Part shown: one piece after another, positions 13,938 through 49,889 of the stretch | How the letters are laid out: each line of letters starts with the position of its first letter | Position numbering within the stretch: position 1 is the first letter of the stretch | Source of the DNA: an uncultured Paracoccaceae bacterium | GTDB lineage: Bacteria > Pseudomonadota > Alphaproteobacteria > Rhodobacterales > Rhodobacteraceae | DNA length: 64,000 nucleotides | Direction of reading: 5' to 3' | NCBI GenBank assembly: GCA_947497065.1 | Contig: CANMEQ010000001.1 | Coordinates: forward strand, 62,001 to 126,000 | The notes under the pieces: model-generated | What the model saw: the letters and a program-made list of their open reading frames with translations, nothing else | Told to the model about the DNA's origin: nothing | Database searches by the model: none | Position numbers and translations under genes: made by a program

Positions 13938-14902
13938 TAGACGATACCGTTTTTGAAACATGTGTCGCGCGGGCTGCTTTGGCACCGACCGTGCACAACA
14001 CGCAGCCTGCCCGCTGGGTGCGCGATGGTGCGGTTCTCTCGTTGTTTTGTGACACGAACGTGGGGCTGCCGGTGGCGGACCCCACTGGGTTTCAGGCGGG
14101 GCTGTCCTGTGGGGCAGTTTTGGAGGCTATGGTTCTGGCGCTTTCGGCAGAAGATATTGGTGTGGTGGTCAGCTATACCGGCCTGCCAACACAGGCGGGC
14201 CAAGGTTTGGTCGCAGTGGCGCATCTTACCTTGGCAGAGGGATCGGTTGATGTACTTCACGAACAATTGGAAAACAGGTTTACGTGGCGCGGCGCGTTTG
14301 AGAATACGCCGCCTGCATTGTTTGGTTGGACCCGTCCCGATGCGCGATTGGTGACGGACCGCACCAGCAAAGAGTGGTTGGCGGAGCAAAACGATTGGGC
14401 AAGCCATCAGATTATGCAGCATGGCGCGTTCCGGCAGGAGCTTTTGTCTTGGATGCGGTTGCAGGCCACGCATCCACGGGCTGGGCTTGATGGGATGGAC
14501 CGGTTGGCATTGATGATGACCCCCAGGCAGGCCCGGGTCGTGCCCTTTGTTTTCGGGGCTTTCTGGCGTGTGCTGTCGTTGTTCGGGAGGACGAAGGGGC
14601 TTGTTGCGGAGGCTGGATTTACATCACAAACGCCGGTTATTGCGTTGTTTCACAGAGATATTCACGAAAACCCAGTTGTGTCTGGTCGCGCGTATCTGCG
14701 GATGTGTCTGGAGGCTGCATCTCTCGGGTTTGCAGGCTGGCCAATGGCCGCACTGACGGATCATCCGGCGGCGAATGATGCGCTGCGGGATCGGTTTGGG
14801 ATCGCGTCTGATCGGCGGTTGATCCAAGCCATTCGGTTTGGAACGCCGGTGGGGATTGCCCCGCCACGGGCCAGACGGCCCATGGCAGAGATTTTGCGTT
14901 AG
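13934..14902 (+). CDS. Acg-like nitroreductase family protein
   Basis: 322 residues. The opening AALAPTVHNTQPARWVRDG matches the FMN-binding start of nitroreductase-fold proteins of the Acg type (A-P-S-x-H-N-x-Q-P-W). A distant Gly-rich C-terminal segment (AASLGFAGWPMAAL) fits the second FMN contact, where these proteins carry G-x-G/A-W. No typical active-site residues for a defined substrate can be named. It is the third gene of the overlapping trio starting at 11762 and converges with the flavin reductase gene, the two stops overlapping by 4 bp. Role unknown; flavin binding is likely. Confidence 0.7.
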   Translation: MIDDTVFETCVARAALAPTVHNTQPARWVRDGAVLSLFCDTNVGLPVADPTGFQAGLSCGAVLEAMVLALSAEDIGVVVSYTGLPTQAGQGLVAVAHLTLAEGSVDVLHEQLENRFTWRGAFENTPPALFGWTRPDARLVTDRTSKEWLAEQNDWASHQIMQHGAFRQELLSWMRLQATHPRAGLDGMDRLALMMTPRQARVVPFVFGAFWRVLSLFGRTKGLVAEAGFTSQTPVIALFHRDIHENPVVSGRAYLRMCLEAASLGFAGWPMAALTDHPAANDALRDRFGIASDRRLIQAIRFGTPVGIAPPRARRPMAEILR

Positions 14903-15384
14903 CCCTTTAAGGAAACGAAGCGGCCACCTTGGAACAGCAACGGTAGCCCGTCGCGGGCGCTGGCGCGGTGGACGCGGCCGACGATGATCGTGTGATCGCC
15001 TGCATCGTGTTCGACGTCGAGGCTGCATTCGAAGCGCGCCAGACAGCCTTTCAACAGGGGAACATCGTTTGCACCGGTTTCCCAATCCAAACCGTCGAAT
15101 GCCGATTTGTCTTTGGTGAACCCGTTGCAGATGTCTTGTTGATGGGCGTCCAGAACATGGATCGCGAAGTGCGGCGCGCCGGAATAATAGCTGAACCGCT
15201 TTGACGATTTTGCAGGGGACCAGAGCACCAAAGGCGGATCTAGTGAAACCGATGCGAAACTGTTTGCGGTGATGCCGATGGGGCCGTCTGCGGACGGGAC
15301 TGTGACAATGGTCACACCCGTCGCGTAGGCCCCCAAAGCCGTACGAAACGCTCTGGGATCATCGAGAGGATCGAAACCAAACAC
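14899..15384 (-). CDS. Flavin reductase (SmoA-like), partner of the flavin monooxygenase
   Basis: 161 residues of the flavin reductase family (HpaC/FRP-like), with the fold marks RTALGAYATGVTIVTV, GITANSFASVSLDPPLVLWS and HAIHVL near the middle. It supplies reduced FMN to a two-component monooxygenase. The start is a GTG that overlaps the stop of the aldo/keto reductase gene (TAGTG). Gene order flavin reductase, aldo/keto reductase, luciferase-like monooxygenase is the same as smoA-smoB-smoC in the sulfoquinovose monooxygenase pathway of Agrobacterium. Substrate of the partner enzyme is inferred from order, not proven. Confidence 0.85.
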   Translation of the reverse strand: MFGFDPLDDPRAFRTALGAYATGVTIVTVPSADGPIGITANSFASVSLDPPLVLWSPAKSSKRFSYYSGAPHFAIHVLDAHQQDICNGFTKDKSAFDGLDWETGANDVPLLKGCLARFECSLDVEHDAGDHTIIVGRVHRASARDGLPLLFQGGRFVSLKG

Positions 15385-16268
15385 TATGGTACCTCGTGGC
15401 CGAGCGCGGCTTCATAGAGTTTGAACCACGTTGGACGATCCATTTTCACTTTAAGGGCGTCTGAGAAGCCTTTGATCCGGTTTATGTTGTTGGTTCCCAT
15501 GACTGGCATTACATTCGCGGGGTGCGCCAAGATCCATGCGACAGCTACGGCTGCGCGGTCCACGCTGTTTGCGTTTGCAACCTCGTCCATCACGGCGGTG
15601 AGTGGTGTGGATTCCGTCATGAGGGCACCACCGCCCAAGGGGGACCATGCCATCGGCGCGATGCCACGTTCTTGCAGATAAGCCATGTCGCCATTTGTCA
15701 GGGCTTCGTTGGCGGTCAGCGATAGCTCAATCTGGTTGGTGACCAGTTTCGCCTCGGTCGCGGATTGCAGGAGGTTCCAATCGTGCAGTTTGAAGTTGGA
15801 CACGCCAACGCTGCGCACCTTGCCAGACGCGATCACTTCGTCGAGTGCTGCACCTGTTTCGTGATGGTCCATCAGCGGGTCGGGGCGGTGGACGAGCAGC
15901 AGATCGATTTTGTCGATGCCCATGAGGCGCAGCGAATGGTCGACAGAGGCCAAGATGTGTTCGCGTGAGGTGTCGTAGTACTTGCCACCCACATCTGCGT
16001 AACGACCTTCGGGGATCAGAATGTCGCATTTTGTGACAACTTCGATCTGGTCTTTGATCGTGGGGGTCAAAGCTGCGCCCATGATTTCTTCCGCCATGTA
16101 GCCGCCGTAAATATCGGCCTGGTCCATGGTGGTGATGCCCTGTTCGAGGCAGGCTTCGATCTTGGCTTGGACGTGAGCGGGGGACGTGTCTTCGACATCG
16201 CCGAGCCGCCACATGCCGTAGACAATACGGCTGAAAGAAAGGTCGGAAGTAAGGTTATTGCGTTCCAT
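15384..16268 (-). CDS. Aldo/keto reductase (SmoB-like)
   Basis: 294 residues, AKR (beta/alpha)8 barrel. The catalytic tetrad is visible: Asp49 and Tyr54 in MDQADIYGGY, Lys80 in VVTKCDI and His127 in LLVHRPDP. NADPH-binding residues are expected near VMPVMGTNN. It overlaps the monooxygenase stop by one base (TAATG) and the flavin reductase start by one base. In the sulfo-SMO pathway SmoB reduces 6-oxo-glucose, the product of desulfonation, to glucose with NADPH; the same gene order makes this the leading hypothesis. It is otherwise a YdhF-like AKR whose substrate cannot be read from the sequence. Confidence 0.86.
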   Translation of the reverse strand: MERNNLTSDLSFSRIVYGMWRLGDVEDTSPAHVQAKIEACLEQGITTMDQADIYGGYMAEEIMGAALTPTIKDQIEVVTKCDILIPEGRYADVGGKYYDTSREHILASVDHSLRLMGIDKIDLLLVHRPDPLMDHHETGAALDEVIASGKVRSVGVSNFKLHDWNLLQSATEAKLVTNQIELSLTANEALTNGDMAYLQERGIAPMAWSPLGGGALMTESTPLTAVMDEVANANSVDRAAVAVAWILAHPANVMPVMGTNNINRIKGFSDALKVKMDRPTWFKLYEAALGHEVP

Positions 16269-17422
16269 TATGTACGTGGTCCATTTCCAAGAGGTGTTGC
16301 TGGCGTGCCCGCGGGGACACGACCATAAGCATGGGGCAATGAGCAGGTTTTCAAGTCCGGCATGACAAGTTTGCCGAAATATTTCGCTTCATCGATGTGG
16401 GGGTAACCAGAGAAAATGAAGCTGCGGATGCCCATTTTACGGTAGTTTTCGATTTTGCTGAGCACTTGATCGGCTGAACCGACCAGGGCAGCGCCACAGC
16501 CGGAGCGCGCGCGGCCGACGCCTGTCCACAGGCCCGGCTCAACGTATCCATATTTGTCGGCCAATTCACGAGCTTTGGCTTGGTGGGCCACGCCGAGTGA
16601 AATGCTGTCGTGTGCACGGTCGCGGATCAGTTTGCCGTATTCATCGTCGAGTTTCGAGGAGATATAGTCGGCGTATTCGCGGGCCTCGGCTTCGGTGTCA
16701 CGGACGATCATATGAACACGCAGGCCGTAATCTAATGTGCGGTCGTACTTTTCGGCGACGGCATTCACGTCTTTCATGCGTTGGGCGATGTTTTCTTCGG
16801 GTTCTGGCCACATCAGATAGACGTCGCAGTGCTGCCCGCACAGGTCGAGCGCCGCGGGAGAGTAGCCGCCGAAGTACAACAGCGGTCCGCCGGTTTGGTA
16901 GGGGGTCGCGGGGGCTGTTGGCACGCCTTGGAAGTTGTAGACTTCGCCTTCGTAGTTGATCTCATCACGGGTCCAGGCCTGCTTCAAGATTTCAACCACT
17001 TCGCGGGAGCGTTGGTAGCGATAGCCGCTTTCCGCCACTTCACCAGGAAAATCCGACGAGATAACGTTGAGGGTCAAACGCCCCTTCATCATGTGGTCCA
17101 GCGTAGCCACGGTGCGCGCCAGCATGATGGGCTGCATTTCACCACAGCGGATGGCGGCTAACATGTTGATGTTTTCAGTCAGGGGCGCCATGCCCGCGAC
17201 AAAGGACAATGTGTCTTGGCCCACTTGATAGGAAGACGGGGCGAGGACGTTACGAAACCCTTGGGCTTCGGCCTCGAGCACGATATCGCGGCAGTGTTCC
17301 CAAGACGACCGCAGGTCGCCATCCGGGACGCCAAGGAATTGATAGTCGTCTGAACAAAGGGCAGAAAACCACGACACTTCTGAGGCGTCTAGGTCGGGGC
17401 TGGTCACCGGAACGATGGTCAT
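16268..17422 (-). CDS. Luciferase-like flavin monooxygenase, candidate sulfoquinovose monooxygenase (SmoC-like)
   Basis: 384 residues of the bacterial luciferase-like (SsuD/LLM) family: PSSYQVGQDTLSFVAGMA, RCGEMQPIMLARTVATLDHM and GRLTLNVISSDFPGE are family landmarks, and the conserved His-Met strand follows. The family uses FMNH2 and O2, for SsuD breaking C-S bonds of alkanesulfonates. Neighbours are flavin reductase and an aldo/keto reductase downstream in the same operon, the smoABC order, with a GntR gene divergent. The intergenic region 17423-17531 carries the shared promoter. Release of sulfite is expected if the call is right. Alternative: a monooxygenase for another alkanesulfonate or a non-sulfur substrate. 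Confidence 0.82.
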   Translation of the reverse strand: MTIVPVTSPDLDASEVSWFSALCSDDYQFLGVPDGDLRSSWEHCRDIVLEAEAQGFRNVLAPSSYQVGQDTLSFVAGMAPLTENINMLAAIRCGEMQPIMLARTVATLDHMMKGRLTLNVISSDFPGEVAESGYRYQRSREVVEILKQAWTRDEINYEGEVYNFQGVPTAPATPYQTGGPLLYFGGYSPAALDLCGQHCDVYLMWPEPEENIAQRMKDVNAVAEKYDRTLDYGLRVHMIVRDTEAEAREYADYISSKLDDEYGKLIRDRAHDSISLGVAHQAKARELADKYGYVEPGLWTGVGRARSGCGAALVGSADQVLSKIENYRKMGIRSFIFSGYPHIDEAKYFGKLVMPDLKTCSLPHAYGRVPAGTPATPLGNGPRT

Positions 17423-17473
17423 GAAACCTCCAATTGGGTTTTGATTTGCCCCTTGCGTAGCATCCTAAAGTTG

Positions 17474-17494
17474 GTGCATCAATAGTGTATCAAT
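17474..17494. promoter_or_regulatory. Direct repeat in the divergent promoter, candidate GntR operator
   Basis: GTGCATCAAT at 17474-17483 and GTGTATCAAT at 17485-17494: two 10-bp copies with one mismatch, period 11, about one helical turn. They lie between the monooxygenase (start 17422, minus) and the GntR gene (start 17532, plus), where one site could control both directions. Confidence 0.5.
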
Positions 17495-17531
17495 TTTTCT
17501 GCGCCGAAACCAGTATCGAGAGGGGGCGAGC

Positions 17532-18254
17532 ATGACACAGCACCAGTCTTCGTCTGATCGGTATGGTGCCTTGCCGAAATATGTACAGATTGCGGAAATG
17601 TTGATCCGTGATATGGCGGCAGGGAGGTTGGCCGACGGTGCGCGGTTGCCGCCTGAACGTGAAATGGCGCAGGAGCTGGGGATTGCTGTTGGCACCTTGC
17701 GCAAAGCGTTGGATGTCTTGGCCGACAAGGGATTGCTGGAGCGTGTTCAAGGGTCTGGAAACTACGTGCGGGCACAGGCGAATGTGCCGTCTGTCTATTC
17801 GTTTTTGCGGATCGAGCGGTTGCAGGGCGGCGGGTTGCCCACAGCGGATATGCTGTCGATTGATCAGATGGTTGCACCGCGCGAAGCAGGATTTCGCAGC
17901 CCCAAAGGATTTCGGTTTCGGCGGTTGCGGTTTATGGATGATGTGCCTGCGGCATTGGAAGAGATTTGGCTAGACGGGGCTGTGACCGAAACGGTGGATG
18001 CAGACGCTGTATCTGAATCGTTGTATCTGTATTACCGTGAAGCCTTAGGCGTGGTGATCACGTCGGCTGAAGACCGTGTGAATGTGTCGGCTGTGCCGGA
18101 GTGGGTCGATCCGCGGTTTGGGGTGAAGGCGGGCGCATTGGCCGGCTACATCGAACGCACAGGCCGTGCGCAATCGGGCGAAACGGTCGAGTTTTCAAGA
18201 ACATGGTTCGATCAGAATCAAATCAATTATGTCTCAAGACTGGGAAAGAGCTAA
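17532..18254 (+). CDS. GntR-family regulator with UTRA domain
   Basis: 240 residues. Winged-helix DNA-binding domain at about 20-80, with LPPEREMAQELGIAVGTLRKALDVLADKGLLERVQGSG broken over the recognition helix, as in HutC-type GntR proteins; the C-terminal part (100-235) fits a UTRA ligand-binding domain. It is divergent from the monooxygenase operon and three bases upstream of the Gfo/Idh/MocA gene. The direct repeat at 17474-17494 in the shared promoter is a candidate binding site. Ligand likely relates to the pathway substrate; the identity is inferred only from context. Confidence 0.87.
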   Translation: MTQHQSSSDRYGALPKYVQIAEMLIRDMAAGRLADGARLPPEREMAQELGIAVGTLRKALDVLADKGLLERVQGSGNYVRAQANVPSVYSFLRIERLQGGGLPTADMLSIDQMVAPREAGFRSPKGFRFRRLRFMDDVPAALEEIWLDGAVTETVDADAVSESLYLYYREALGVVITSAEDRVNVSAVPEWVDPRFGVKAGALAGYIERTGRAQSGETVEFSRTWFDQNQINYVSRLGKS

Positions 18255-18257
18255 GCG

Positions 18258-19364
18258 ATGGAAATGGTGAATTACGGATTGATCGGTTGCGGGATGATGG
18301 GGCGTGAGCACATCCAGAACATCAATCTGTTGCCGCAAGGGCGCGTGAGCGTTGTGTATGATCCGGTGCGTGAGTTGGCGGAAAGTGCGGCTGTTTTGGC
18401 AGGCAAAGGGGGGGCTGCGGCGCCTGCTGCTGTCGCGGAAACCTTGGACGACTTTCTGGCGTTTGAAGCGTTGGATGCGGTTGTGATTGTTAGCCCGAAC
18501 AACATCCACGTTGCCCAGCTGCGCGAGATTGTGGACAAGCGCCCGATGCCGATTTTATGTGAAAAGCCGCTGTATACGGATCCGGCGGATGCGGCTGTTT
18601 TGGATAAACTGTTCAAAGGCTATGCCCATCCTGTGTGGGTGGCGATGGAATACCGATACATGCCGCCCGTGGCTGCCTTGATTGAGCAGGCCGAACAGGC
18701 GACAGGCGGCATCGCGATGTTGACCATCCGCGAGCACCGTTTTCCGTTCTTGCCCAAGATCGGCGATTGGAACCGGTTTAACGAAAACACCGGCGGGACG
18801 CTGGTGGAAAAATGCTGCCATTTCTTTGATTTGATGCGCGTTATTTTGAAGGCGGAACCGGTTCGTGTTATGGCATCGGCGGGTCAAACGCTGAACCACA
18901 AAGACGAAGAATATGATGGTCGCGTGCCCGATATTTGGGACAATGGTTATGTGATCGTTGATTTCGACACCGGGGCCCGTGCGATGCTGGAATTGTGCAT
19001 GTTCGCCGAAGGATCTGAGTATCAAGAAGAGATCAGCGCAGTTGGGCCGAAAGGCAAAATCGAATGTCTGGTTCCGGGGCCCGGACGGTTTTGGCCTGAA
19101 AAACTGGGGCCTGCGCCGGTGCCACAGCTGATCATCAGCCCGCGTGCGCCCAAGGGGCCAATCACCATGGATATTCCGGTGGACCCGACCCTGCTGGAAG
19201 CAGGGGATCACAACGGCTCGACGTTTTATCAGCATCAACGGTTCAATGCCGTTGTGCGCGGTCAAGGCGGTGTGGAGGTCAAGCTGTCAGACGGCGCAAA
19301 AGCTGTGGCGATGGGAATCGCGGCGCAAGAAAGTGCAGCGACAGGCCAAGCTGTCGAGATTTAA
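18258..19364 (+). CDS. Gfo/Idh/MocA-family NAD-dependent protein, candidate NAD+-dependent sulfoquinovosidase (GH188-like)
   Basis: 368 residues. N-terminal Rossmann fold with GLIGCGMMGREH (residues 7-18), the EKP motif in CEKPLYT (near 98) and GGTLVEKCCHFFDLMR in the C-terminal domain, all standard for the Gfo/Idh/MocA family. Co-transcribed with the GntR regulator and facing the smoABC-like operon. A Gfo/Idh/MocA-like family, GH188 (SqgA), hydrolyses sulfoquinovosides with NAD+ as transient redox cofactor and is found in sulfoquinovose gene clusters, so it may replace the GH31 glycosidase. A plain sugar dehydrogenase is the alternative. No hairpin terminator with a T tract follows, but two hairpins fill 19385-19430. 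Confidence 0.75.
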   Translation: MEMVNYGLIGCGMMGREHIQNINLLPQGRVSVVYDPVRELAESAAVLAGKGGAAAPAAVAETLDDFLAFEALDAVVIVSPNNIHVAQLREIVDKRPMPILCEKPLYTDPADAAVLDKLFKGYAHPVWVAMEYRYMPPVAALIEQAEQATGGIAMLTIREHRFPFLPKIGDWNRFNENTGGTLVEKCCHFFDLMRVILKAEPVRVMASAGQTLNHKDEEYDGRVPDIWDNGYVIVDFDTGARAMLELCMFAEGSEYQEEISAVGPKGKIECLVPGPGRFWPEKLGPAPVPQLIISPRAPKGPITMDIPVDPTLLEAGDHNGSTFYQHQRFNAVVRGQGGVEVKLSDGAKAVAMGIAAQESAATGQAVEI

Positions 19365-22968: not shown

Positions 22969-23787
22969 ATGCCGGACATGTCTGTTTTACTGCCGCTGGT
23001 GGCACTTTTGTTGGCGATCGGGGCCTTTGCGGGGCTTTTGGCAGGGCTTTTGGGCGTGGGTGGGGGCATCGTACTGGTGCCCGCCTTTTTCTACGCGTTT
23101 ACGGCCTTGGGGTATGACAGCCCGCAATTGATGCAGATCTGTTTGGGCACGTCTTTGGCGACGATTATTGTAACCTCGATCCGGTCCGTTTCATCGCATC
23201 ACAAAAAGGGCGCAGTGGAGTGGGACATTCTGCGCGGCTGGGGGCTGGGCATTGTGATCGGGGCGATTGTGGGCGTTTTGGTGGCCACACAATTGCGGTC
23301 GGTTGTTTTGCAGGCGGTTTTTGGCGGGATGGGCCTGTGTATCGGGCTCTACATGGCGTTTGGCCGTGCGACGTGGCGTTTAGGCGATGACATGCCCAAA
23401 GGCGCGGGGCGTGCTGCGGGCGCGCCTACGATTGGATTTTTGTCGGTGTTGATGGGCATTGGTGGCGGCAACATCGGGGTGCCGTTGATGACGCTGTACG
23501 GCGTGCCTATTCATCGTGCGGTTGCCACCGCATCGGGGTTCGGTGTTTTGATCGGCGTGCCTGCGGTAATCGGGTTTTTGTTCGCGGATATCGATGTGGC
23601 GCCCCCGCTGACGGTGGGCGCCGTGAACCTCGGCGCATTCGTGATCATTATTGCGATGACATTGATAACAACGCCGATGGGGGCCGCATTGGCGCACCGG
23701 ATGGATCCAAAACCGTTGAAAAAGGTGTTCGGGTTTTTCTTGATGTTCGTGGCGCTGAACATGCTGCGTAAAGTGTTTTTCGCTTAA
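22969..23787 (+). CDS. TauE/SafE-family sulfite exporter
   Basis: 272 residues with about eight membrane helices. The opening LLALGAFAGLLAGLLGVGGGIVLVP-type segment and the second half repeat GFLSVLMGIGGGNIGVPLM are the duplicated domain of TauE/SafE proteins. Members export sulfite or other sulfonate-derived anions, and this gene lies 5 kb from the putative sulfoquinovose locus, which would release sulfite. No operon link, though: it follows dusA by 68 bp with its own ribosome site (GGGGAGGG at 22957-22964). Substrate cannot be read from sequence. Confidence 0.85.
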   Translation: MPDMSVLLPLVALLLAIGAFAGLLAGLLGVGGGIVLVPAFFYAFTALGYDSPQLMQICLGTSLATIIVTSIRSVSSHHKKGAVEWDILRGWGLGIVIGAIVGVLVATQLRSVVLQAVFGGMGLCIGLYMAFGRATWRLGDDMPKGAGRAAGAPTIGFLSVLMGIGGGNIGVPLMTLYGVPIHRAVATASGFGVLIGVPAVIGFLFADIDVAPPLTVGAVNLGAFVIIIAMTLITTPMGAALAHRMDPKPLKKVFGFFLMFVALNMLRKVFFA

Positions 23788-31600: not shown

Positions 31601-32653
31601 ATGCGGATTACCTCCATCACCCCGATGAAGAATGAAGCCCCCTTTATTTTGGAGTGGGTCGCCTACCACCGGATGATCGGGGTGAATGATATCATCGTGT
31701 TTTCAAATGATTGCACCGATGGCACCAACATTATGCTGGAACGTCTGGATGAAATGGGGCTTTTGCGTCATTACCCGAACCCATGCATGGCGATGCAAAA
31801 GCCCAAACCGCATTTGCAAGTGATCCGCTACATCAACACGTCTGATCGGTTGCGCCGCTCGGATTGGGTTGTCAGCCTTGATGTTGATGAATTCATTCGG
31901 GTGAACACGGGCAAGGGTCATCTGGAGGATCTGTTTAATGCAGTGCCGGATGCGAATATGATCTGCATGAACCAGCTTAATTTTGGGCATGGGGGCGTTG
32001 AGGCATTCGAAGACGACCTTTTGATCAAACAGTTTCAATATTGTTGGGACTACAACAGAGCCTACCACCGAAACTTGAACCGGCGGGGGGTGAAAACGAT
32101 CACCCACGCCTCTTCAAACCCGAAAGCCTGGCACAACCATTCGCCTATTTTTCATCGTAAGGATGTGCCCAACGTGCATTGTGTCAATGGCAATGGGCAA
32201 CCGCTAGAGGATGTGAACTTAGAAAAAGACATCAAAAGCATTTTGGCGCCAAATTATGGGTTTGATTTGGTTCAGTTGAACCACTACGCGCTGCGTGCGC
32301 GTGATACGTTTATGCTCAAGGTCCATCGTGGCAATGCGAACCACGCCAATGATGACAAAGACCCCAAAGATATTATTTCAGAACAAATGACCTATTGGCG
32401 TCGCTACGACAATAATCACCACCACGATACCCGCATTCAAAGCATGGTTGATGATGTTGCAACGGCGCGCGATGAGTTGTTGAAAGACCCAGAACTGCGC
32501 CAGCTTCACACCGCAGCCGTGGGCATCGCGCAAGTTCGGATCGCGGAGTTGAAGGAAGATAAGATGATGCAAGCGCTGATGAAACGCGTGCGTGGCTTCA
32601 TCAAACGTCATCCTGTGGGCGTTCTGCCTGAGGCCGAGGTTGACGCCAGCTGA
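31601..32653 (+). CDS. Glycosyltransferase family 2-like protein (paralogue 1 of 3)
   Basis: 350 residues. MRITSITPMKNEAPFILEWVAYHRMIGV starts a GT-A fold; the metal-binding D-x-D is in VVSLDVDEFIRV (near residue 91). C-terminal part is charged. Its N-terminal half shares its pattern with the two genes on the minus strand (MKNEGPYLLEWLAYHKSIG and MMKDEGHSLVEWVAYHNHIG), so the three are paralogues of a Rhodobacteraceae expansion. It converges with the sulfotransferase gene, 5 bp apart. A cell-surface or exopolysaccharide role is expected. Confidence 0.85.
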   Translation: MRITSITPMKNEAPFILEWVAYHRMIGVNDIIVFSNDCTDGTNIMLERLDEMGLLRHYPNPCMAMQKPKPHLQVIRYINTSDRLRRSDWVVSLDVDEFIRVNTGKGHLEDLFNAVPDANMICMNQLNFGHGGVEAFEDDLLIKQFQYCWDYNRAYHRNLNRRGVKTITHASSNPKAWHNHSPIFHRKDVPNVHCVNGNGQPLEDVNLEKDIKSILAPNYGFDLVQLNHYALRARDTFMLKVHRGNANHANDDKDPKDIISEQMTYWRRYDNNHHHDTRIQSMVDDVATARDELLKDPELRQLHTAAVGIAQVRIAELKEDKMMQALMKRVRGFIKRHPVGVLPEAEVDAS

Positions 32654-32658
32654 CCTGT

Positions 32659-33453
32659 TCAGTCGCTTTCATTATTGGCGCAGACCGAGACCCATGATTG
32701 ATCGGCCTCATACCCAAGGGTGACCAAGGCATCGCCAAAAGCGTCGCTGTAGTCTTGTGCGATTTCAGCGGGCAAGCCCTCACGCCATTGCGCCGTGCGA
32801 CCGGACTTGATGTGCGATTTGACGTTCCCTTTGAGGTTTTCAGCCTCTTTCAGGCCCCCAAACATTGAATGGGTCCAGTAGAACTCCAACAGGCGTTCTT
32901 TATCAAAACCGCCCACGTCCAAAGCCTCGATCGCTTCTCTGAACAGGCTGGCATCTGTGTCGTTGATCAGGTCTTCGTAGCGCACATCAAACACGTTGCT
33001 ATGCCCGTAAGGCCAAGCCAACATTTCATCTAGGGTTGTTTTATGTTTGTTGTGCATCTCAAAACGCAGCTGCCCAGTGCGTGTGGTTTCTGTATTGATC
33101 CGCTCTTGATAGGACATGCCATCGAATTCGCGACGAGGGCGGGCCAGCCACTTTTCATTGCCAGTCTTGGCTGTCAGGTGGTAGCGCGCACCCGAAATCA
33201 AGACGTCCCGTGGATCGCGGATCATGTGAAAGGCGCGCACATCGTCACGGTCCAACAGCTCACGCGGGAAGGTTGACGACCAATTCACCAGCAAAGCAGG
33301 CCCATCTTCGGGCAGGTCATCCATATCAAATTTTTGGCCGATGCGGATTACGGGAATACCTTGCTCGGTCGCAAATTTGTGAAATGTGCGCCGCATCCAG
33401 ACGGTACCTGTCTTATGGTGGGTGCCGACGCAGAGAAACCTAGGGCCCGTCAT
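32659..33453 (-). CDS. Sulfotransferase family protein
   Basis: 264 residues. The PAPS 5'-phosphosulfate loop is THHKTGTVWMRRTF near residue 12 and the 3'-phosphate motif is MIRDPRDVLISGARYH (about 78). ATG 33453 overlaps the stop of the upstream glycosyltransferase gene by ATGA. Frame stays open upstream into a lysine-rich stretch (KKKAM), the reverse of a slippery site discussed in the findings. It probably sulfates a glycan made with the neighbouring glycosyltransferases. Confidence 0.86.
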   Translation of the reverse strand: MTGPRFLCVGTHHKTGTVWMRRTFHKFATEQGIPVIRIGQKFDMDDLPEDGPALLVNWSSTFPRELLDRDDVRAFHMIRDPRDVLISGARYHLTAKTGNEKWLARPRREFDGMSYQERINTETTRTGQLRFEMHNKHKTTLDEMLAWPYGHSNVFDVRYEDLINDTDASLFREAIEALDVGGFDKERLLEFYWTHSMFGGLKEAENLKGNVKSHIKSGRTAQWREGLPAEIAQDYSDAFGDALVTLGYEADQSWVSVCANNESD

Positions 33454-34475
33454 CGCTTTTTTTTTTCTTTCATCTTCTGGAATAGACCGGTGTCGATAAA
33501 GGTTCGGAACTCGGGCACTTGGAGTTGGTAATCTAGGGCGCGCTGCGAACATTCGGTGCAGGCACGGGCGAGGGCGGCCAGATCGGAATCTGCGAGCCAT
33601 GCATCCATCTGCGCTCGCAATCCATCTGTGCGGATTGTCGTGTCTTCATGGGTGTTGATGTCGTATTTGTCCCAATAATCCATGTCGATCCGGCCCTTGT
33701 TTTTGGAATTGGCCGTGCCCCGCAGACGCTTGAGCAAGAAATCTTCACGCGATTTGATGGCGTAGTGGTTTACCTGCGCAAAGGCGTTGGTGACATTCTC
33801 TTTATTGCCGCGCCATCCCTTACCAAGATACTGGTCGCCCATGGGCTGGCCGGCGGCATTGGTCCAAGTGACCATGCCGGGGGTCACCTCTGTTTCTTTT
33901 TTGAATTTGGGGCGGTGCACGCCAAAGAAATCGAATTTCCCGGGCCTAAACAATGTCTTGAAGCCCCAGACTAAACCATTTTCAGGATCGTCGAAGGAAG
34001 AACCACGTGTGAAACGTTCGGTGACCAATTCGCCTTTGACCGGATCGATCGACATTTTCGACTGTCCTTGCGAGCCCATCAAACGCCAGTTGATTGAAAT
34101 CGCATCTGGTGCACCGCAGGCGTCGATCAACGCATCAATGCTGCGGTCGCCCACATGGATGTTCAGGAACTCGTCCGCATCCACGATCAAAACCCAGTCT
34201 GCGGATTTCACCCAGTCTAAACCATTGGCGCGGCTGTAGGCAGACCGTTGCGGGTCCATACGTGGGCCTTGGGGGTTGTCGTAGTGTTTGACAACGCCCA
34301 TTTGATCCAGGCGGTTCAGCATCAGGTTTGTGCCGTCGGTACAATCATTTGAAAAGATGCAAAATTCGTCGATGCCGATAGATTTGTGGTAGGCCAGCCA
34401 TTCCAAAAGGTAGGGGCCTTCGTTCTTCATCGTCGTCACCAGAACCTTGCGGCCTGCGTTTGGGGCAGCGGTCAT
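33450..34475 (-). CDS. Glycosyltransferase family 2-like protein (paralogue 2 of 3)
   Basis: 341 residues. MKNEGPYLLEWLAYHKSIGI opening and metal-binding VLIVDADEFLNIHVG. It resembles the 31601 and 34472 products and clusters with the sulfotransferase. Its coding region ends in a run of ten A (in the gene sense) giving KMKEKKKR and the stop, whose last base starts the sulfotransferase ATG. Its start overlaps the stop of the upstream paralogue by ATGA, so the three minus-strand genes form an operon. Confidence 0.85.
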   Translation of the reverse strand: MTAAPNAGRKVLVTTMKNEGPYLLEWLAYHKSIGIDEFCIFSNDCTDGTNLMLNRLDQMGVVKHYDNPQGPRMDPQRSAYSRANGLDWVKSADWVLIVDADEFLNIHVGDRSIDALIDACGAPDAISINWRLMGSQGQSKMSIDPVKGELVTERFTRGSSFDDPENGLVWGFKTLFRPGKFDFFGVHRPKFKKETEVTPGMVTWTNAAGQPMGDQYLGKGWRGNKENVTNAFAQVNHYAIKSREDFLLKRLRGTANSKNKGRIDMDYWDKYDINTHEDTTIRTDGLRAQMDAWLADSDLAALARACTECSQRALDYQLQVPEFRTFIDTGLFQKMKEKKKR

Positions 34476-36151
34476 TTCTTGGTCGCTTTCTTTTTGGCCG
34501 CAGTTGCAGTTTTGGCCTTTGCTGTTGTTTTTCTGGCGGTTGTCTTTTTGGGCGCTGCTTTCTTCGGCGTTCCGGCCTTTCGCGGTGCGCGCTTTTTGGG
34601 TGCCGCTTTCGGCGCCACGGGCGTTGGCACAGTGTCCTCTGGGCTTTCGATGGTGGTCGATGCCTCTAAAGTTGTGCTTTTGACGATGGCGTCCATACTA
34701 GGGGCGGGCTCACGCATATCTACGACCGCTTTGGGCGATGGTTTCTCCTGCGCTTTCAGAATTTTACGGGCGTTTTCCGCCTTGGCTAAAAGGGTTGCAG
34801 CCGCTTTGTCGTTCGGGTCTGCGGCCTGTGCGGCCAATGCAATTTTCTGCGTCCGCTCATTCATCAGCGGCACACCCAAACCGGCGGCTGCTTCGGTGTT
34901 CAGAAACGGATTGTCGAGGGTGTCGCCCTTGTTTTCCTTGCCCTTCAGCTGATGTGCATCGAGTTTTTCGGCGGCATTTTCACCAGCTGCAGCCAACAAT
35001 GCCTGTCGGGTTTCACCTTTCTTCGCGGTTTGGGTCTGACTGATCATTTTTGCGATCTTTGTGTCGGGAACGCCGGCCGCCTGAAGTTGTTTGACCTTTT
35101 CTTGCCATTCCTTGGGCAAGTGCTGGACAAACAAAACCTCATCCAGCTTATCCAGTGGCACTTCGCTGGCGTCTTTCAGATCTTTAAGCCATTGATCGTA
35201 TTCCCCAGATGATCGTAGCATTTCAACGCGTTTCGCGTGGAACTCCAATGCCTTGTCCTGCAGCTCGCGCATGATCGGATCACTGAGGATTTTCGCCATC
35301 TTCTTTTTCACGCCCTTCGCATGGCGCGTGGCGTTCATGTGTTCTTCTTCGTTGCGATCAAACAAGGCGAAGTAGGCCGCGTTATATTTGTCTTCTTTGT
35401 TGTTCACGTTCCCGCGGACACGGCGCAGCAAATAGGCCTCGTAAGACTTTACCGCGTAGTGATTTAGCTCGACCCATTTGTAACCCAGTGTTGGTTTGGT
35501 GGATCGCCAGCCGGACAATGAAAATTCGTCAGGCATCGGTCTACCGGACCCATTTAACCACAGCTGATCGAACAAAAGCTTTGCATTAGCAGGCTCTTGC
35601 TTGGCTTTCTTAATGTGGGGGCGATGGATCCCGAGCTTCATGTCACGGTAGGGTTTGAACATGGTTTTCACGCCCCAACCCTTTTTAAACATGTCAGGTG
35701 CAGCATGGGTGTAGTTTTCAGTGACCAGCCCTGGGTTCCAATCGGTCACACCGCTGGAGCCGAAAAACCGCCAAGTGATGGCGATAGCATCTGCGTTCGG
35801 GTCCATTTTTTCGGCCAGATGTTGGATGTGACCACGCCCCACTTTGATGGACAGAAATTCATCTGCGTCCATCGTCAAGATCCACTCACTATCCGTGACT
35901 TCGGGGTTTTTTGTGGCCAGCATCAACGCATTTGGCTGCGGTTTTTTGCCTTCGGGCACATCGTTGCGGAAGTGTTTGACCCAGCCCAGCTCTTCGAGGC
36001 GGATCAACATATCGTCGGTGCCATCGCCGCAATTGTTTGTGTAGACGCAGATATTATCGAAGCCGATGTGATTGTGATAGGCAACCCATTCCACAAGGGA
36101 GTGGCCTTCATCTTTCATCATCGAGAGAATTGTAAACTGGTGTTTGGCCAT
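34472..36151 (-). CDS. Glycosyltransferase family 2-like protein with histone H1-like tail (paralogue 3 of 3)
   Basis: 559 residues. The first about 260 residues are the glycosyltransferase domain (MMKDEGHSLVEWVAYHNHIG, ILTMDADEFLSIKVG). Then a long charged, helical region (about 270-470) and a C-terminal tail of about 45 residues made almost only of Lys, Ala, Pro and Thr (KKAAPKK repeats), like bacterial histone H1-type tails. The tail is an unusual add-on for a glycosyltransferase and could bind polyanions or anchor the enzyme; this is inference. First gene of the operon with paralogue 2 and the sulfotransferase. Confidence 0.82.
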   Translation of the reverse strand: MAKHQFTILSMMKDEGHSLVEWVAYHNHIGFDNICVYTNNCGDGTDDMLIRLEELGWVKHFRNDVPEGKKPQPNALMLATKNPEVTDSEWILTMDADEFLSIKVGRGHIQHLAEKMDPNADAIAITWRFFGSSGVTDWNPGLVTENYTHAAPDMFKKGWGVKTMFKPYRDMKLGIHRPHIKKAKQEPANAKLLFDQLWLNGSGRPMPDEFSLSGWRSTKPTLGYKWVELNHYAVKSYEAYLLRRVRGNVNNKEDKYNAAYFALFDRNEEEHMNATRHAKGVKKKMAKILSDPIMRELQDKALEFHAKRVEMLRSSGEYDQWLKDLKDASEVPLDKLDEVLFVQHLPKEWQEKVKQLQAAGVPDTKIAKMISQTQTAKKGETRQALLAAAGENAAEKLDAHQLKGKENKGDTLDNPFLNTEAAAGLGVPLMNERTQKIALAAQAADPNDKAAATLLAKAENARKILKAQEKPSPKAVVDMREPAPSMDAIVKSTTLEASTTIESPEDTVPTPVAPKAAPKKRAPRKAGTPKKAAPKKTTARKTTAKAKTATAAKKKATKK

Positions 36152-45759: not shown

Positions 45760-46488
45760 TTAGCTGGCTTCGGCTGGGCGCTGGATGCGCCCGTTTTCAA
45801 AATGGATGCCGCATTCGGTTTTGCCGGTGTCACGCCAGCGGCCCGCGCGGGGGTCTTCGCCGTCGTTTACACGGGTTGTGCAGGGTGTGCACCCGATGCT
45901 GGGGTAGCCTTGGGCGACCAACGGGTGACGTGGCAAGGTGTTGTTGCGCAGATAGTCCGCAATATCGTCGCGGTCCCAATAGGCCAGTGGATTGACCTTT
46001 ACCCGCGGCAGTTCCCCAAGGGGGCGATCCACCTCAAAGTGTTGGAGCGCGGCACGGTCGCCGCCCTGCACACGTTTGCGCCCCGTGACCCAAGCATCAA
46101 CGCCTTTCAGCGCTTTTTGCAACGGTTCGGTTTTGCGCAAGGCACAGCAGGCATCTGGATCATGCAGGTGCAACAGGTTTTCATTGTCCCGCTCGAACAC
46201 AGCCGCACGTGAGGCGCGGATGGTTTCGACATTGGTCAGGCCCAGCACCTTGGCCACCTGTTGTTGGTAGGCCAAGGTTTCTGGAAACAGAAGCTCCGTG
46301 TCGATGAAAACCACATGCACGCTGGGGTCAATTTTGGCCGCCATGTGCAACAAAACAACGCTTTCCGCCCCGAATGAGCTGACCAAAGACGTCTGACCCA
46401 ATTGGGTCAGCGCATGGTCCATCACATCCAACGCGTCTTTGTCTTTGAACACGCGGTTTAGGGTTTGGGTGCGTCCATCAAGCGGCAT
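45760..46488 (-). CDS. cysH: Adenylyl-sulfate (APS) reductase, CysH family
   Basis: 242 residues from ATG 46488. SSFGAESVVLLHMA is the nucleotide-binding loop, Cys114-Cys115 and Cys200-x2-Cys203 (GCTPC) are four cluster cysteines, and KTECGIH holds catalytic Cys226. The CC...CxxC pattern is typical for [4Fe-4S] APS reductases rather than PAPS-only enzymes. Converts APS to sulfite with thioredoxin. Overlaps the cysI stop by 11 bp in the operon. Confidence 0.93.
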   Translation of the reverse strand: MPLDGRTQTLNRVFKDKDALDVMDHALTQLGQTSLVSSFGAESVVLLHMAAKIDPSVHVVFIDTELLFPETLAYQQQVAKVLGLTNVETIRASRAAVFERDNENLLHLHDPDACCALRKTEPLQKALKGVDAWVTGRKRVQGGDRAALQHFEVDRPLGELPRVKVNPLAYWDRDDIADYLRNNTLPRHPLVAQGYPSIGCTPCTTRVNDGEDPRAGRWRDTGKTECGIHFENGRIQRPAEAS

Positions 46489-48142
46489 TCGCCTTGGCCT
46501 CCGGATATAGGATCGCCTTGAACGGGGCTGCGCCGAGGCGGCGGTAGGCCTCGAGGAAGGTCTCGTCTGCGTCTGCACGCAGGTCGATGTAGCCGGTGAT
46601 CAGACGCTCGATTGCAGGCACGATATCGTCGGCGCTGAAGCCCGGGCCTGCGCGTTCGCCGATAGCTGCGGTTTCGGTGCCGTCACCGCCCAGTGTGATC
46701 TGGTAGTTTTCAACACCTGCACGGTCGAGGCCGAGGATACCGATGTGGCCCACGTGGTGGTGACCACAGGCGTTGATGCAGCCGGAGATTTTGATCTTGA
46801 GCTGGCCGATGTCGTGCTCGACCTGCAATTCTTCGACGCGGGTTGCGATTTGCTGCGCCACAGGAATAGAGCGGGCCGTCGCCAAAGCGCAGTAATCCAT
46901 GCCGGGGCAGGCGATGATATCGGAGGCAAGGCCGATGTTCGCTGTGGCCAGATCCGCAGCACGCAGCTCGGCGTAAAGTGCAGGCAAGTCGGACTTGTGC
47001 ACGTGTGGGATGATCACGTTTTGCTCATGGCTGATGCGCAGTTCATCGTGGCCGTATTTGCGGGCCAGATCTGCCATCACGCGCATTTGGTCTGCGGTCG
47101 CATCACCTGGTGTGGCACCGTGTTTTTTGATCGAAATGCTGACGATGGCGTAGCTGTCGACGCGGTGCGCGGTCAGGTTTGTGTCGGTCCAAGACTTGAA
47201 CGCAGGGTTGGCCAGACGCGCGGCTTCGTAGCCGTCGATGGGCGCATTTTTGAACGCGGGGGGCGCGAATTGTGCTTCGATGTCGCGCAGGATGTCTTGG
47301 TCGACGCCTGTGAACAACGGGCGGATTTCGGCGAAGCGCTCGTCGACCAAACGACGGATTTCGTCGATGCCGTGCTCGTGCACAGTGATCTTGATGCGCG
47401 CTTTGTATTTGTTGTCGCGGCGGCCCAAACGGTTCCAGACAGATACGATCGCTTCGACATAAGGCAGAAGGTCAGCTTCGGGCAGGAAGTCGTTGATAAC
47501 CTTGCCAATCATCGGTGTGCGGCCAAGGCCACCCCCGACGCTGACTTCATAGCCACGCTGGCCGTCGCGTTCCAAAAGACGCAGGCCAATATCGTGGGCT
47601 TTGGTCACGGCGCGGTCGTTCTCGGAGCCGGTGATAGCGATTTTAAACTTGCGCGGCATGAACTGGAATTCAGGCTGATCCATGGACCACTGACGCAGCA
47701 ATTCGGCCACTGGACGCGGGTCGGCGACCTCGTCGGCGGCGGCACCAGCGAAGTGGTCGGCGGTGACGTTGCGGATACAGTTACCGGAGGTCTGGATGGC
47801 GTGCATGCCGACGTCGGCAAGGTCAGACAGCATGTCTGGCACGTCTTTCAGTTCAGGCCAGTTGTACTGGATGTTCTGGCGGGTGGTGAAGTGGCCGTAG
47901 CCTTTGTCGTAGGTCTCGGCGAGGTGGGCCAGACGGTCCATCTGATCGGAGCGCAGGGTGCCGTAGGGCACGGCCACGCGCAGCATGTAGGCGTGCAATT
48001 GCAGGTACAAACCGTTCATCAAACGCAGGGGTTTGAATTCGTCTTCGGTCAGGGAGCCGTCGATGCGGCGCTCCACTTGGCCTCGGAATTGGGAGACACG
48101 TTCGCGCACGAATGCTTCGTCAAAATCGTTATATTTATACAT
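46478..48142 (-). CDS. cysI: Assimilatory sulfite reductase hemoprotein (CysI-like)
   Basis: 554 residues of the nitrite/sulfite reductase family. Siroheme-[4Fe-4S] motifs: TSGNCIRNVT region and GMDYCALA, CINACGHHHVGHIG with the cluster cysteines, and FTGVDQDILRDIE. Uses electrons from ferredoxin (fpr is in the same operon). Reduces sulfite to sulfide with siroheme from CysG. Start 48142 follows the DUF2849 gene by three bases. Confidence 0.93.
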   Translation of the reverse strand: MYKYNDFDEAFVRERVSQFRGQVERRIDGSLTEDEFKPLRLMNGLYLQLHAYMLRVAVPYGTLRSDQMDRLAHLAETYDKGYGHFTTRQNIQYNWPELKDVPDMLSDLADVGMHAIQTSGNCIRNVTADHFAGAAADEVADPRPVAELLRQWSMDQPEFQFMPRKFKIAITGSENDRAVTKAHDIGLRLLERDGQRGYEVSVGGGLGRTPMIGKVINDFLPEADLLPYVEAIVSVWNRLGRRDNKYKARIKITVHEHGIDEIRRLVDERFAEIRPLFTGVDQDILRDIEAQFAPPAFKNAPIDGYEAARLANPAFKSWTDTNLTAHRVDSYAIVSISIKKHGATPGDATADQMRVMADLARKYGHDELRISHEQNVIIPHVHKSDLPALYAELRAADLATANIGLASDIIACPGMDYCALATARSIPVAQQIATRVEELQVEHDIGQLKIKISGCINACGHHHVGHIGILGLDRAGVENYQITLGGDGTETAAIGERAGPGFSADDIVPAIERLITGYIDLRADADETFLEAYRRLGAAPFKAILYPEAKANAA

Positions 48143-48145
48143 GAT

Positions 48146-48448
48146 TTATACTTTCTCGACTTGCTTGCCATGGGCGTAGTTTGAGGGGCCGCGCGTGCGG
48201 AATTCTTCGCGGAAGTGTGTGGGCTCCGGGCCGTCTTCGCCCATTTTGGCGTCGGCCAGATAGGCGCCAACGATGACGCCTTTTTGCGCGTTTGCTTCGA
48301 TCAGGCGCAGGTCAGCGTGGGCTTCATCGGTGATGAATTCGGCGTCTTTAATATCGCCGGTCCAGCCGTTGTCGGTGGTGAACCAAACCGCGTCACCTTC
48401 GAGCAGACGGTTGGATGTGATGACTTTTGGGGTGAAAGCACGGGGCAT
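48146..48448 (-). CDS. DUF2849 protein
   Basis: 100 residues. MPRAFTPKVITSNRLLEGDAVWFT is the DUF2849 start, followed by a short charged region. Small proteins of this family sit between cysG and cysI in many Rhodobacteraceae. Frame is open further upstream to 48544 but that part overlaps cysG. Function not known. Confidence 0.88.
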   Translation of the reverse strand: MPRAFTPKVITSNRLLEGDAVWFTTDNGWTGDIKDAEFITDEAHADLRLIEANAQKGVIVGAYLADAKMGEDGPEPTHFREEFRTRGPSNYAHGKQVEKV

Positions 48449-48449
48449 A

Positions 48450-49889
48450 TTATAGGGCCTCCTGAGGCTGTATGGGTTGGGTATGGGTCTGGTATGGGTC
48501 CGGTATGGCTGCGGGCTGGGTTTTCGCCAGTTCAGCTGCCTCACGTGGGGCCAGACCGAGAAAGGTCAAGGCGGGGCCGGAGAGGCCCGCGGTTGCGAGT
48601 GTTGGTTCCAATTCGGCCAATGTGGTGGCCAGCACGCGCTGATCGGGGCGCGAGACATTTTCGATGATCGTGACGGCAGTCAGGGGATCGGCGCCGTGCA
48701 TCAGTAGGCGGCCCTGAATGAAACGCGCGGATTTTTTGCCCATGTAGATGGCGGCCACTTGGCCCGGTTCGGCCAAGGTGCGCCAGTCGTGATCGGCGTA
48801 GCCTTTGGTGTCGTGGCCGGTGATGAAACGCACGGATGAGTTCCGGCCCCGCTTTGTGAGGCTTTGGTTCAGGGAGGCCACACCAGCGGAGGCGGCGGTG
48901 ATGCCGGGCACGATGGTGTAAGACAGATTGGCGGCGGTGATGGCGTCGAGTTCTTCGTCGAGGCGACCGAACACGGTTGGGTCGCCGGATTTGAGGCGCA
49001 CGACGTGGTGGCCTTGGCGACCGTGATCAACGATCAGGGCGTTGATGTCGTCTTGAGCCATGGCTTGGCCGAACCCGGTTTTGCCCGCATCGATCATGAT
49101 CGCTTCGCGGCGGGCCAATTCAAGGATTTCGGGCGTGACGAGACGGTCGTAGATCACGACGTCTGCTTTATCCAAGGCTTTGCGCGCTTTGAGGGTGAGA
49201 AATTCGGGATCGCCGGGGCCTGCGCCCACCAGATCGATGTGGCCGGGTTTGGATTTGGCGGCCAAGTGATCGTCGAGCAGGGTTTCCAGCGCTCCGTGCA
49301 CGGCGTCTTCGCCCAGTGCGATCGCGCGGGGGCCTGCGTTGAAATAATAGTCGGCCCAGAAATCGCGGCGGGCCACGCCGAAGGGCAGCTTTTCCGCCAT
49401 GGTGCGGAAGCCCTTGCCGATGCGGGCGAGCGTGCCGAGAGAGGCGGGCAGTTTTTCTTCGAGGTCTTTTTTGATCGCACGGGCCAACACGGGCGCAGCA
49501 CCTTCGGTGCCGATGGCCACGGTGACAGGATCGCGGTCGACGATGGCGGGGGTGATGAATTGGCTGTCGCCCAAATTGTCGACGATGTTGACCAAGGCGC
49601 CGTCGCGGTGGGCGAGGGCGGCGGTGCGGGCATCTTCGACCGCGTCTTCGTGGGCGGCGTAGAACAGCGATGCGCACAGGGCGTCGCCCGGTTCCATCGC
49701 GCGCTGGATCAGGGTGAGCTTGTCTGCGGCGGCCCAATCGTGGATTTCCGCAGCGGCGGTTTCCGCGATGACTGTGACCTTGGCTTGGGTTTTCAGGATC
49801 AACCGAAGCTTGGCCAAAGCCGCATCGCCACCGCCTGCAAGAACAATGCGGCGGCCTTCGACGGCTAGGAAGATCGGAAAGTGTTTCAT
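48450..49889 (-). CDS. cysG: Siroheme synthase (CysG-type, fused dehydrogenase/ferrochelatase and methyltransferase)
   Basis: 479 residues. N-terminal precorrin-2 dehydrogenase/sirohydrochlorin ferrochelatase domain (FLAVEGRRIVLAGGGDAALAKLR), then SUMT methyltransferase domain (LVGAGPGDPEFLTLKARKAL, DVVIYDRLV, RLKSGDPTVFGR). Makes siroheme for CysI. First gene of the operon; ends in a Gln/Pro/Thr tail encoded by near-identical repeats. Divergent from the Lrp-type regulator. Confidence 0.94.
   Translation of the reverse strand: MKHFPIFLAVEGRRIVLAGGGDAALAKLRLILKTQAKVTVIAETAAAEIHDWAAADKLTLIQRAMEPGDALCASLFYAAHEDAVEDARTAALAHRDGALVNIVDNLGDSQFITPAIVDRDPVTVAIGTEGAAPVLARAIKKDLEEKLPASLGTLARIGKGFRTMAEKLPFGVARRDFWADYYFNAGPRAIALGEDAVHGALETLLDDHLAAKSKPGHIDLVGAGPGDPEFLTLKARKALDKADVVIYDRLVTPEILELARREAIMIDAGKTGFGQAMAQDDINALIVDHGRQGHHVVRLKSGDPTVFGRLDEELDAITAANLSYTIVPGITAASAGVASLNQSLTKRGRNSSVRFITGHDTKGYADHDWRTLAEPGQVAAIYMGKKSARFIQGRLLMHGADPLTAVTIIENVSRPDQRVLATTLAELEPTLATAGLSGPALTFLGLAPREAAELAKTQPAAIPDPYQTHTQPIQPQEAL
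48470..48511. repeat. Short tandem repeat at the end of cysG
   Basis: Units TGGGTATGGGTC, TGGTATGGGTC and CGGTATGGCTG in a row; they encode the C-terminal DPYQTHTQP segment of CysG. Confidence 0.55.

Follow-up and report, generated by a model that had tools for sequence, protein, structure and literature searches.

The locus described here lies in a 64 kb stretch of DNA from an uncultured Paracoccaceae bacterium (the window, i.e. the whole 64,000 nucleotides analysed from contig CANMEQ010000001.1) and raises two questions: whether its five genes encode a complete enzyme set for the oxidative desulfonation of sulfoquinovose (SQ), i.e. the sulfo-SMO pathway, and by which route an SQ glycoside would enter the cell when no transporter flanks the locus. 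The five open reading frames (ORFs), all intact, span positions 14899-19364 of the window:

14899-15384, minus strand: SmoA, predicted flavin reductase (161 aa, GTG start; Pfam Flavin_Reduct, 3.3e-38)
15384-16268, minus strand: SmoB, aldo/keto reductase (AKR), predicted 6-dehydroglucose reductase (294 aa; phmmer against the PDB)
16268-17422, minus strand: SmoC, predicted FMNH2-dependent SQ monooxygenase, first gene of the operon (384 aa; phmmer against the PDB, Pfam Bac_luciferase)
17423-17531, no strand: intergenic region separating the divergent smoC and GntR genes, predicted to hold the promoters and a GntR operator
17532-18254, plus strand: GntR/UTRA-family regulator (240 aa; Pfam UTRA, 1.1e-19, and GntR, 1.3e-16)
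18258-19364, plus strand: predicted GH188 NAD+-dependent sulfoquinovosidase (SQase) of the SqgA type, Gfo/Idh/MocA fold (368 aa)

This five-gene locus is confirmed as real. The smoC, smoB and smoA genes form one operon with one-base stop/start overlaps at the junctions TAATG and TAGTG, and this operon is divergent from the pair of GntR and GH188 genes, the latter of which starts 3 nt past the GntR stop codon. An earlier note on this DNA had read the region as an SQ oxidative desulfonation locus in which flavin reductase, AKR and monooxygenase genes overlap by single bases, face a GntR gene, have a Gfo/Idh/MocA gene as fourth partner and lack an adjacent transporter, and all of these features are present at intact coordinates; the order smoA-smoB-smoC given there is the order of the coordinates, while the order of transcription is smoC-smoB-smoA.

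In phmmer searches of the PDB, SmoC gave full-length matches to 7oh2 (E 6.9e-208, 694 bits) and 7olf (E 2.2e-206, 689 bits), both of which we take to be SQ monooxygenases, while the next-best entries, i.e. 7jv3, presumably MsuD (1.7e-58, 202 bits), and SsuD 1nqk (7.8e-54, 187 bits), were far weaker. Similarly, SmoC scored 244 bits against the SsuD equivalog model and did not reach its cut-off of 518. Moreover, W206, R236, H238, Y341 and H343 of 7oh2, which we assume to be the sulfonate-binding residues of the SQ monooxygenase, align with W205, R235, H237, Y340 and H342 of SmoC. SmoC is thus an orthologue of the sulfo-SMO monooxygenase distinct from SsuD and MsuD, and neither of the sequence outcomes named in the earlier note as telling against SQ, i.e. 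grouping with alkanesulfonate or unrelated LLM enzymes or a lack of sulfonate-binding residues, was found. SmoB matched 7bby and 7bbz, presumably SmoB themselves, over its whole length (E 3e-114 to 4e-114), with the next family at 1.6e-60 (1og6, YdhF), and by these matches is an orthologue of the SmoB of the pathway. A 2026 study (PMC13372026) designates genomes having SmoB and SmoC as sulfo-SMO-positive.

The Gfo/Idh/MocA protein matched 8zn9 (4.3e-146), 8qc3 (8.6e-111) and 8qc2 (9.8e-107), the latter two being the structures of ArSqgA and FlSqgA, respectively, and the next PDB entry was found at 1.9e-13. Of 359 residues aligned with ArSqgA, 181 (50%) are identical. All nine active-site and sulfonate positions of ArSqgA named in Kaur et al. 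2023 (PMC10755693) are matched by K103, Y132, E159, R161, L165, K167, E184, H188 and H318, which include the complete catalytic set K, Y, E, E, H, H (K103, Y132, E159, E184, H188 and H318) as well as the sulfonate triad R166/L170/K172, kept as R161, L165 and K167; the comparison assumes that the numbering of the ArSqgA chain is offset by 13 from that of the paper, which fits all residues except the printed Glu163, found one place later. The nine positions are common to the protein and the SqgA enzymes (8qc2, 8qc3 and, by similarity, 8zn9), and no notable difference was seen. The alignment to GH188 proposed in the earlier note therefore bears out its expectation, and we conclude, as far as sequence can tell, that the protein is a GH188 NAD+-dependent sulfoquinovosidase.

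We compared the locus with 80 related loci from one scan of genome contigs (the best 80 of at least 584 relatives). Within 6.5 kb of SmoC, the AKR was present in 79/80 loci, the flavin reductase in 77/80, the GntR regulator in 79/80 and GH188 in 77/80, and GH188 was divergent from SmoC in all 77 loci that have it. With 77-79 of 80 loci for each partner gene, the clustering of the smo genes is not chance. The closest locus (L002), with a SmoC 96% identical to that of the window, is from a Rhodobacteraceae bacterium, and the next-closest loci, with SmoC at 91-93%, are from Octadecabacter or Pseudooctadecabacter. SmoC is present in 16/19 genomes of the genus of the window, and several of the close loci share their contig coordinates with genomes assigned to this genus, which supports the earlier description of the host as a marine roseobacter. 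By contrast with SmoC and SmoB, SmoA had its best PDB match at 3.3e-40 (4xhy) with no recognisable SmoA among its solved relatives; it belongs to the correct family (Flavin_Reduct) and stayed below all cut-offs of the NCBIfam families listed. Because no NCBIfam cut-off was reached, SmoA was named on synteny alone (77/80 loci), which counts against the completeness of the set.

In total, these observations support, with a probability of about 0.93, that the locus encodes a complete sulfo-SMO enzyme set in a roseobacter of the Octadecabacter group. Gene content, gene order, orthology and the conservation of known active-site residues were observed directly, and from them we infer the substrates, all enzyme activities and the regulation of the locus. 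GH188 would release SQ from sulfoquinovosyl glycerol via transient NAD+ oxidation at C3; SmoA would supply FMNH2 to SmoC, which, with O2, would split the C-S bond to yield sulfite and 6-dehydroglucose; and SmoB would reduce the 6-dehydroglucose to glucose. The GntR protein would be a sugar-responsive regulator acting between the two divergent units.

In the sulfo-SMO pathway of Agrobacterium, the SQase is a GH31 enzyme, in place of which the window locus has GH188, while the predicted SmoA/B/C chemistry and an ATP-binding cassette (ABC) importer are common to Agrobacterium and the genome of the window. The ABC importer of the Agrobacterium pathway is one for SQ-glycerol, as described in Sharma et al. 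2022 and summarised in PMC9594981. The combination of smo genes and GH188 is already published: in Kaur et al. 2023 (PMC10755693), which cites Liu et al. 2023 (ISME J), GH188 is near-universal in sulfo-SMO clusters of the Roseobacter clade, and SQ is said to be made at ~10 billion tons a year. Because that paper describes the same combination, the core of the locus adds one more case to a system already in the literature, and the novelty implied by the earlier note was too high. Such Roseobacter clusters, e.g. that of Ruegeria TM1040, agree with the window locus in their five genes and in the divergent arrangement of these.

The difference from these clusters concerns transport. At least one gene of a tripartite ATP-independent periplasmic (TRAP) transporter lies beside smoA in TM1040 and in 52/80 loci, whereas the window locus has none and its candidate importer is an unlinked ABC cassette; 28 loci had no TRAP gene beside smo, three of which stop ~0.3 kb or less from the last matched smo gene. 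Likewise, among eight annotated plasmid clusters that we opened, TRAP genes follow the smo genes in seven (in Qingshengfaniella, only smoC and GntR of the smo locus are present, with TRAP following), while in the eighth, Marinovum pMaD9, the place of TRAP is taken by an ABC sugar transporter. A transporter inside the cluster is thus usual, not universal, in sulfo-SMO clusters, and is missing from the locus; TRAP, ABC and putative sulfate exporter (PSE) query proteins had no match at E 1e-5 anywhere in the window. Moreover, no orthologue of the SQ-TRAP was found in the genome of the window, which is 99% complete: the best-scoring match to its DctP binding protein was 27% identical (highest identity 29%) and TRAP permease pieces reached 46%, and we therefore rejected an SQ-TRAP elsewhere in this genome. 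The best-scoring DctP-like match (L086, G000:C2:34976-35941) contains an in-frame TAA in its matching part and is possibly a pseudogene.

On contig C4, i.e. on another contig than smo, the genome of the window encodes a protein orthologous to the ABC binding protein of Marinovum (80% identical):

G000:C4:93289-97729: CUT1 ABC cassette (binding protein, two permeases and ATPase)
G000:C4:93289-94548: ABC binding protein of this cassette

We propose that the TRAP transporter found beside smoA in most related loci was lost and that this cassette probably imports the SQ glycoside instead. This importer exchange would be the new part of the analysis, a testable addition that we hold with moderate confidence. 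The earlier description of the locus as a reduced version stands in that a transporter is absent from it; it is better read as the loss of a linked TRAP with a probable ABC replacement elsewhere.

The proposal is based on the distribution of the two importers. Within the genus, the TRAP binding protein was found in 11 genomes, each time ~5 kb from SmoC, and the ABC binding protein in exactly the four scorable genomes with SmoC and without TRAP and in 0/11 genomes with TRAP; a fifth TRAP-less genome (G038) was left unscored, as its contig breaks off within the TRAP genes (L004). At E 1e-80, the cassette was absent from the three genus genomes lacking SmoC (G032, G033 and G040), two of which are <90% complete. 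Over 62 scored SmoC-positive genomes, the ABC binding protein was present in 16/17 genomes without TRAP versus 1/45 with TRAP, where for many of the latter the TRAP call rests on the smo locus itself; 44 genomes had TRAP only, 16 ABC only, one both (L027) and one neither (L079, a 1.9 Mb assembly). In a tree of SmoC, SmoB and GntR, seven independent pairs on well-supported branches differed in opposite directions in a mean of 6.2 cases and the same way in 0.0 (median p 0.03, range 0.016-0.063). In five genomes with TRAP, the SQ-TRAP lies away from the smo locus, which in the stretch fetched has no TRAP gene (L022, L027, L045, L061 and L075, i.e. G006, G007, G013, G015 and G018; binding proteins 75-80% identical). 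For L022 and L045 (Yoonia), a CUT1 cassette beside smo was considered as the replacement importer and rejected, as these genomes still carry TRAP elsewhere; its binding protein has a 72% identical relative in the genome of the window.

Several observations weigh against an importer exchange. L027 carries both importers and L079 neither, and the tree used for the pairs was built from smo genes, not from genome markers. Of the 17 ABC calls, seven have an identity of only 41-47% (L020, L037, L041, L048, L068, L073 and L076), and for three of these seven the stretch fetched is without the accompanying Gfo genes (L162, L165 and L166). When only binding proteins at least 50% identical were counted, the contrast was 9/17 versus 1/45 and the pairs test was not significant (median p 0.25); when those with accompanying Gfo genes were added, it was 13/17 versus 1/45 (median p 0.03). 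The entries that we take to be SmoF (7nbz, 7ofy, 7qhv, 7yzs and 7yzu) did not appear when PDB sequences were matched to the Marinovum orthologue or to the binding-protein profile, the SmoF sequence itself not having been compared. These entries were also absent from the 50 of 1617 fold matches that were listed for the predicted structure of the binding protein (mean pLDDT 81), which included CUT1-type sugar-binding proteins at 14-21% identity. Finally, as described next, genes for glucuronate use lie near the cassette in most genomes surveyed.

In a survey of 395 genomes of the family, the binding protein was found at E 1e-130 or better in 26. Among the 25 genomes other than that of the window, uxaC, uxuB or uxuA lies near the cassette in 18, and smo genes lie near it, within ~10 kb in fetched stretches of up to 20 kb, in ten (L198, L199, L200, L203, L205, L206, L207, L212, L214 and L220; in L203, the smo genes present are those for the AKR and the flavin reductase only). 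Because the cassette often neighbours glucuronate genes, it may mainly serve the uptake of a glucuronoside. This opens an alternative in which the cassette imports glucuronosides only, the anti-correlation with TRAP is a coincidence of lineage and SQ enters by another transporter. A glucuronate isomerase, a fructuronate-reductase-like gene or a mannonate dehydratase gene lies nearby in the same 18/25 genomes, the cassette of the genome of the window itself adjoins UxaC, UxuB and a GH31 enzyme, 15/25 neighbourhoods show no smo gene, and the strict identity cut removes significance, all of which favour this alternative. However, L212 and L214 have the cassette embedded in their smo genes, in the order smoC-smoB-binding protein-permease-permease-ATPase, followed by GntR and GH188, and three uronate query genes had no match in the 20 kb that were fetched. 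The flavin reductase of L214 is located between the cassette and GntR/GH188 on the other strand, and in L212 no flavin reductase was matched. Moreover, with the wider definition of the binding protein, the exchange of TRAP for ABC is seen repeatedly, in several lineages. We therefore regard an import of glucuronosides only as a serious possibility that nevertheless falls short of even odds.

For the cassette itself, the simplest reading would be that it takes up C6-acidic hexosides, with glucuronosides, SQ glycosides or both as substrates. In L198, smoC-smoB-smoA directly adjoin GH31, UxuB, UxaC, GntR and the cassette, followed by a mannonate dehydratase gene, and the GH31-UxuB-UxaC-GntR-ABC set is also present in the genome of the window, there on another contig than smo. 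SQ-glycerol derives from sulfolipid and glucuronosyl-glycerol from glucuronosyl lipids. A broader and rather doubtful idea is that the cassette might import the head groups of anionic glycolipids generally, i.e. SQ-glycerol and glucuronosyl-glycerol as near-isosteric C6-acidic hexosides, so that bacteria holding it could drop a dedicated SQ-TRAP; joined islands of smo, GH31, uxaC/uxuB/uxuA and ABC genes, as in L198, might then degrade both head groups with one importer. We considered the GH31 enzyme beside the cassette of the genome of the window as a second SQase and rejected it, as it scored 155 bits against PRK10426, presumably the YihQ model, versus a cut-off of 553, and matched YihQ chains at 2e-30 to 1e-28 versus 6e-78 for the best GH31. 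Around the cassette on contig C4 (L140:6751-19730) lie genes for the ABC sugar importer, a FadR-type GntR regulator, a glucuronate isomerase, a fructuronate-reductase-like enzyme, the GH31 enzyme, a protein with a xylose-isomerase-like barrel and another Gfo/Idh/MocA protein. Other recurrent neighbours of the cassette, e.g. in L021:12580-20092, L169, L170 and L199, are an esterase-like gene and a row of three Gfo/Idh/MocA genes, often with smo genes alongside; this esterase and Gfo/Idh/MocA set possibly encodes an oxidoreductive glycoside pathway.

The transporters that bring SQ glycosides into marine bacteria are not settled in the literature covered. If confirmed, the repeated exchange of TRAP for ABC would name an SQ transporter for bacteria whose clusters seem to have none, would provide a marker for the reading of metagenomes and would suggest a link between the use of sulfolipid and that of glucuronosyl lipids; it is also a warning that smo loci without an adjacent transporter should not be called incomplete on that ground. 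An exchange of TRAP for ABC for SQ was not described in the titles and openings of abstracts listed by the searches, and an earlier description is possible, as Liu et al. 2023, Sharma et al. 2022 and the SmoF paper were outside that search.

The missing importer could also mean that the locus is decaying, with the remaining genes on their way out after the usual TRAP genes had gone from it and, as far as was found, from the genome. This is very improbable, as all five genes are intact and every GH188 residue checked is kept; moreover, L002 has the same layout at 90-96% protein identity (SmoA/B/C 93-96%, GntR and GH188 90-94%), and a second TRAP-less pair, L005 and L006, also retains the smo genes. 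Finally, the Pfam families of the Gfo/Idh/MocA protein also cover inositol and sugar dehydrogenases, which would allow it to be read as a common sugar dehydrogenase in a cluster degrading another sulfonate or sugar. This is hardly credible, as E values of 1e-106 or lower were obtained with 8zn9, 8qc3 and 8qc2 and of 1.9e-13 with the next entry, and the sulfonate triad is present.

A TauE/SafE-family gene lies at 22969-23787 of the window, 3.6 kb from the locus, adjoining a gene that we read by eye as dus-like. The earlier note had pointed to a sulfite exporter at this distance; the TauE-family gene is there and is not specifically tied to the smo locus, as it was matched in 10/80 loci, in all ten ~1.1 kb from the dus-like gene and 3-8 kb from smoC. 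We therefore rejected it as a dedicated sulfite exporter of the locus. A different gene is found in TM1040, Rhizobium SL42, Salipiger and Roseicitreum, either immediately after TRAP or a few genes further along; it is annotated as a putative sulfate exporter and had no match in the 64 kb window. Read by eye, genes like those for sulfite/nitrite reductase, phosphoadenosine phosphosulfate (PAPS) reductase and siroheme synthase form an assimilatory sulfur block at 45760-49889, 26-30 kb from smo, and a run of glycosyltransferase-2-like genes with a sulfotransferase-like ORF, likewise assigned by eye only, lies at 31601-36151.

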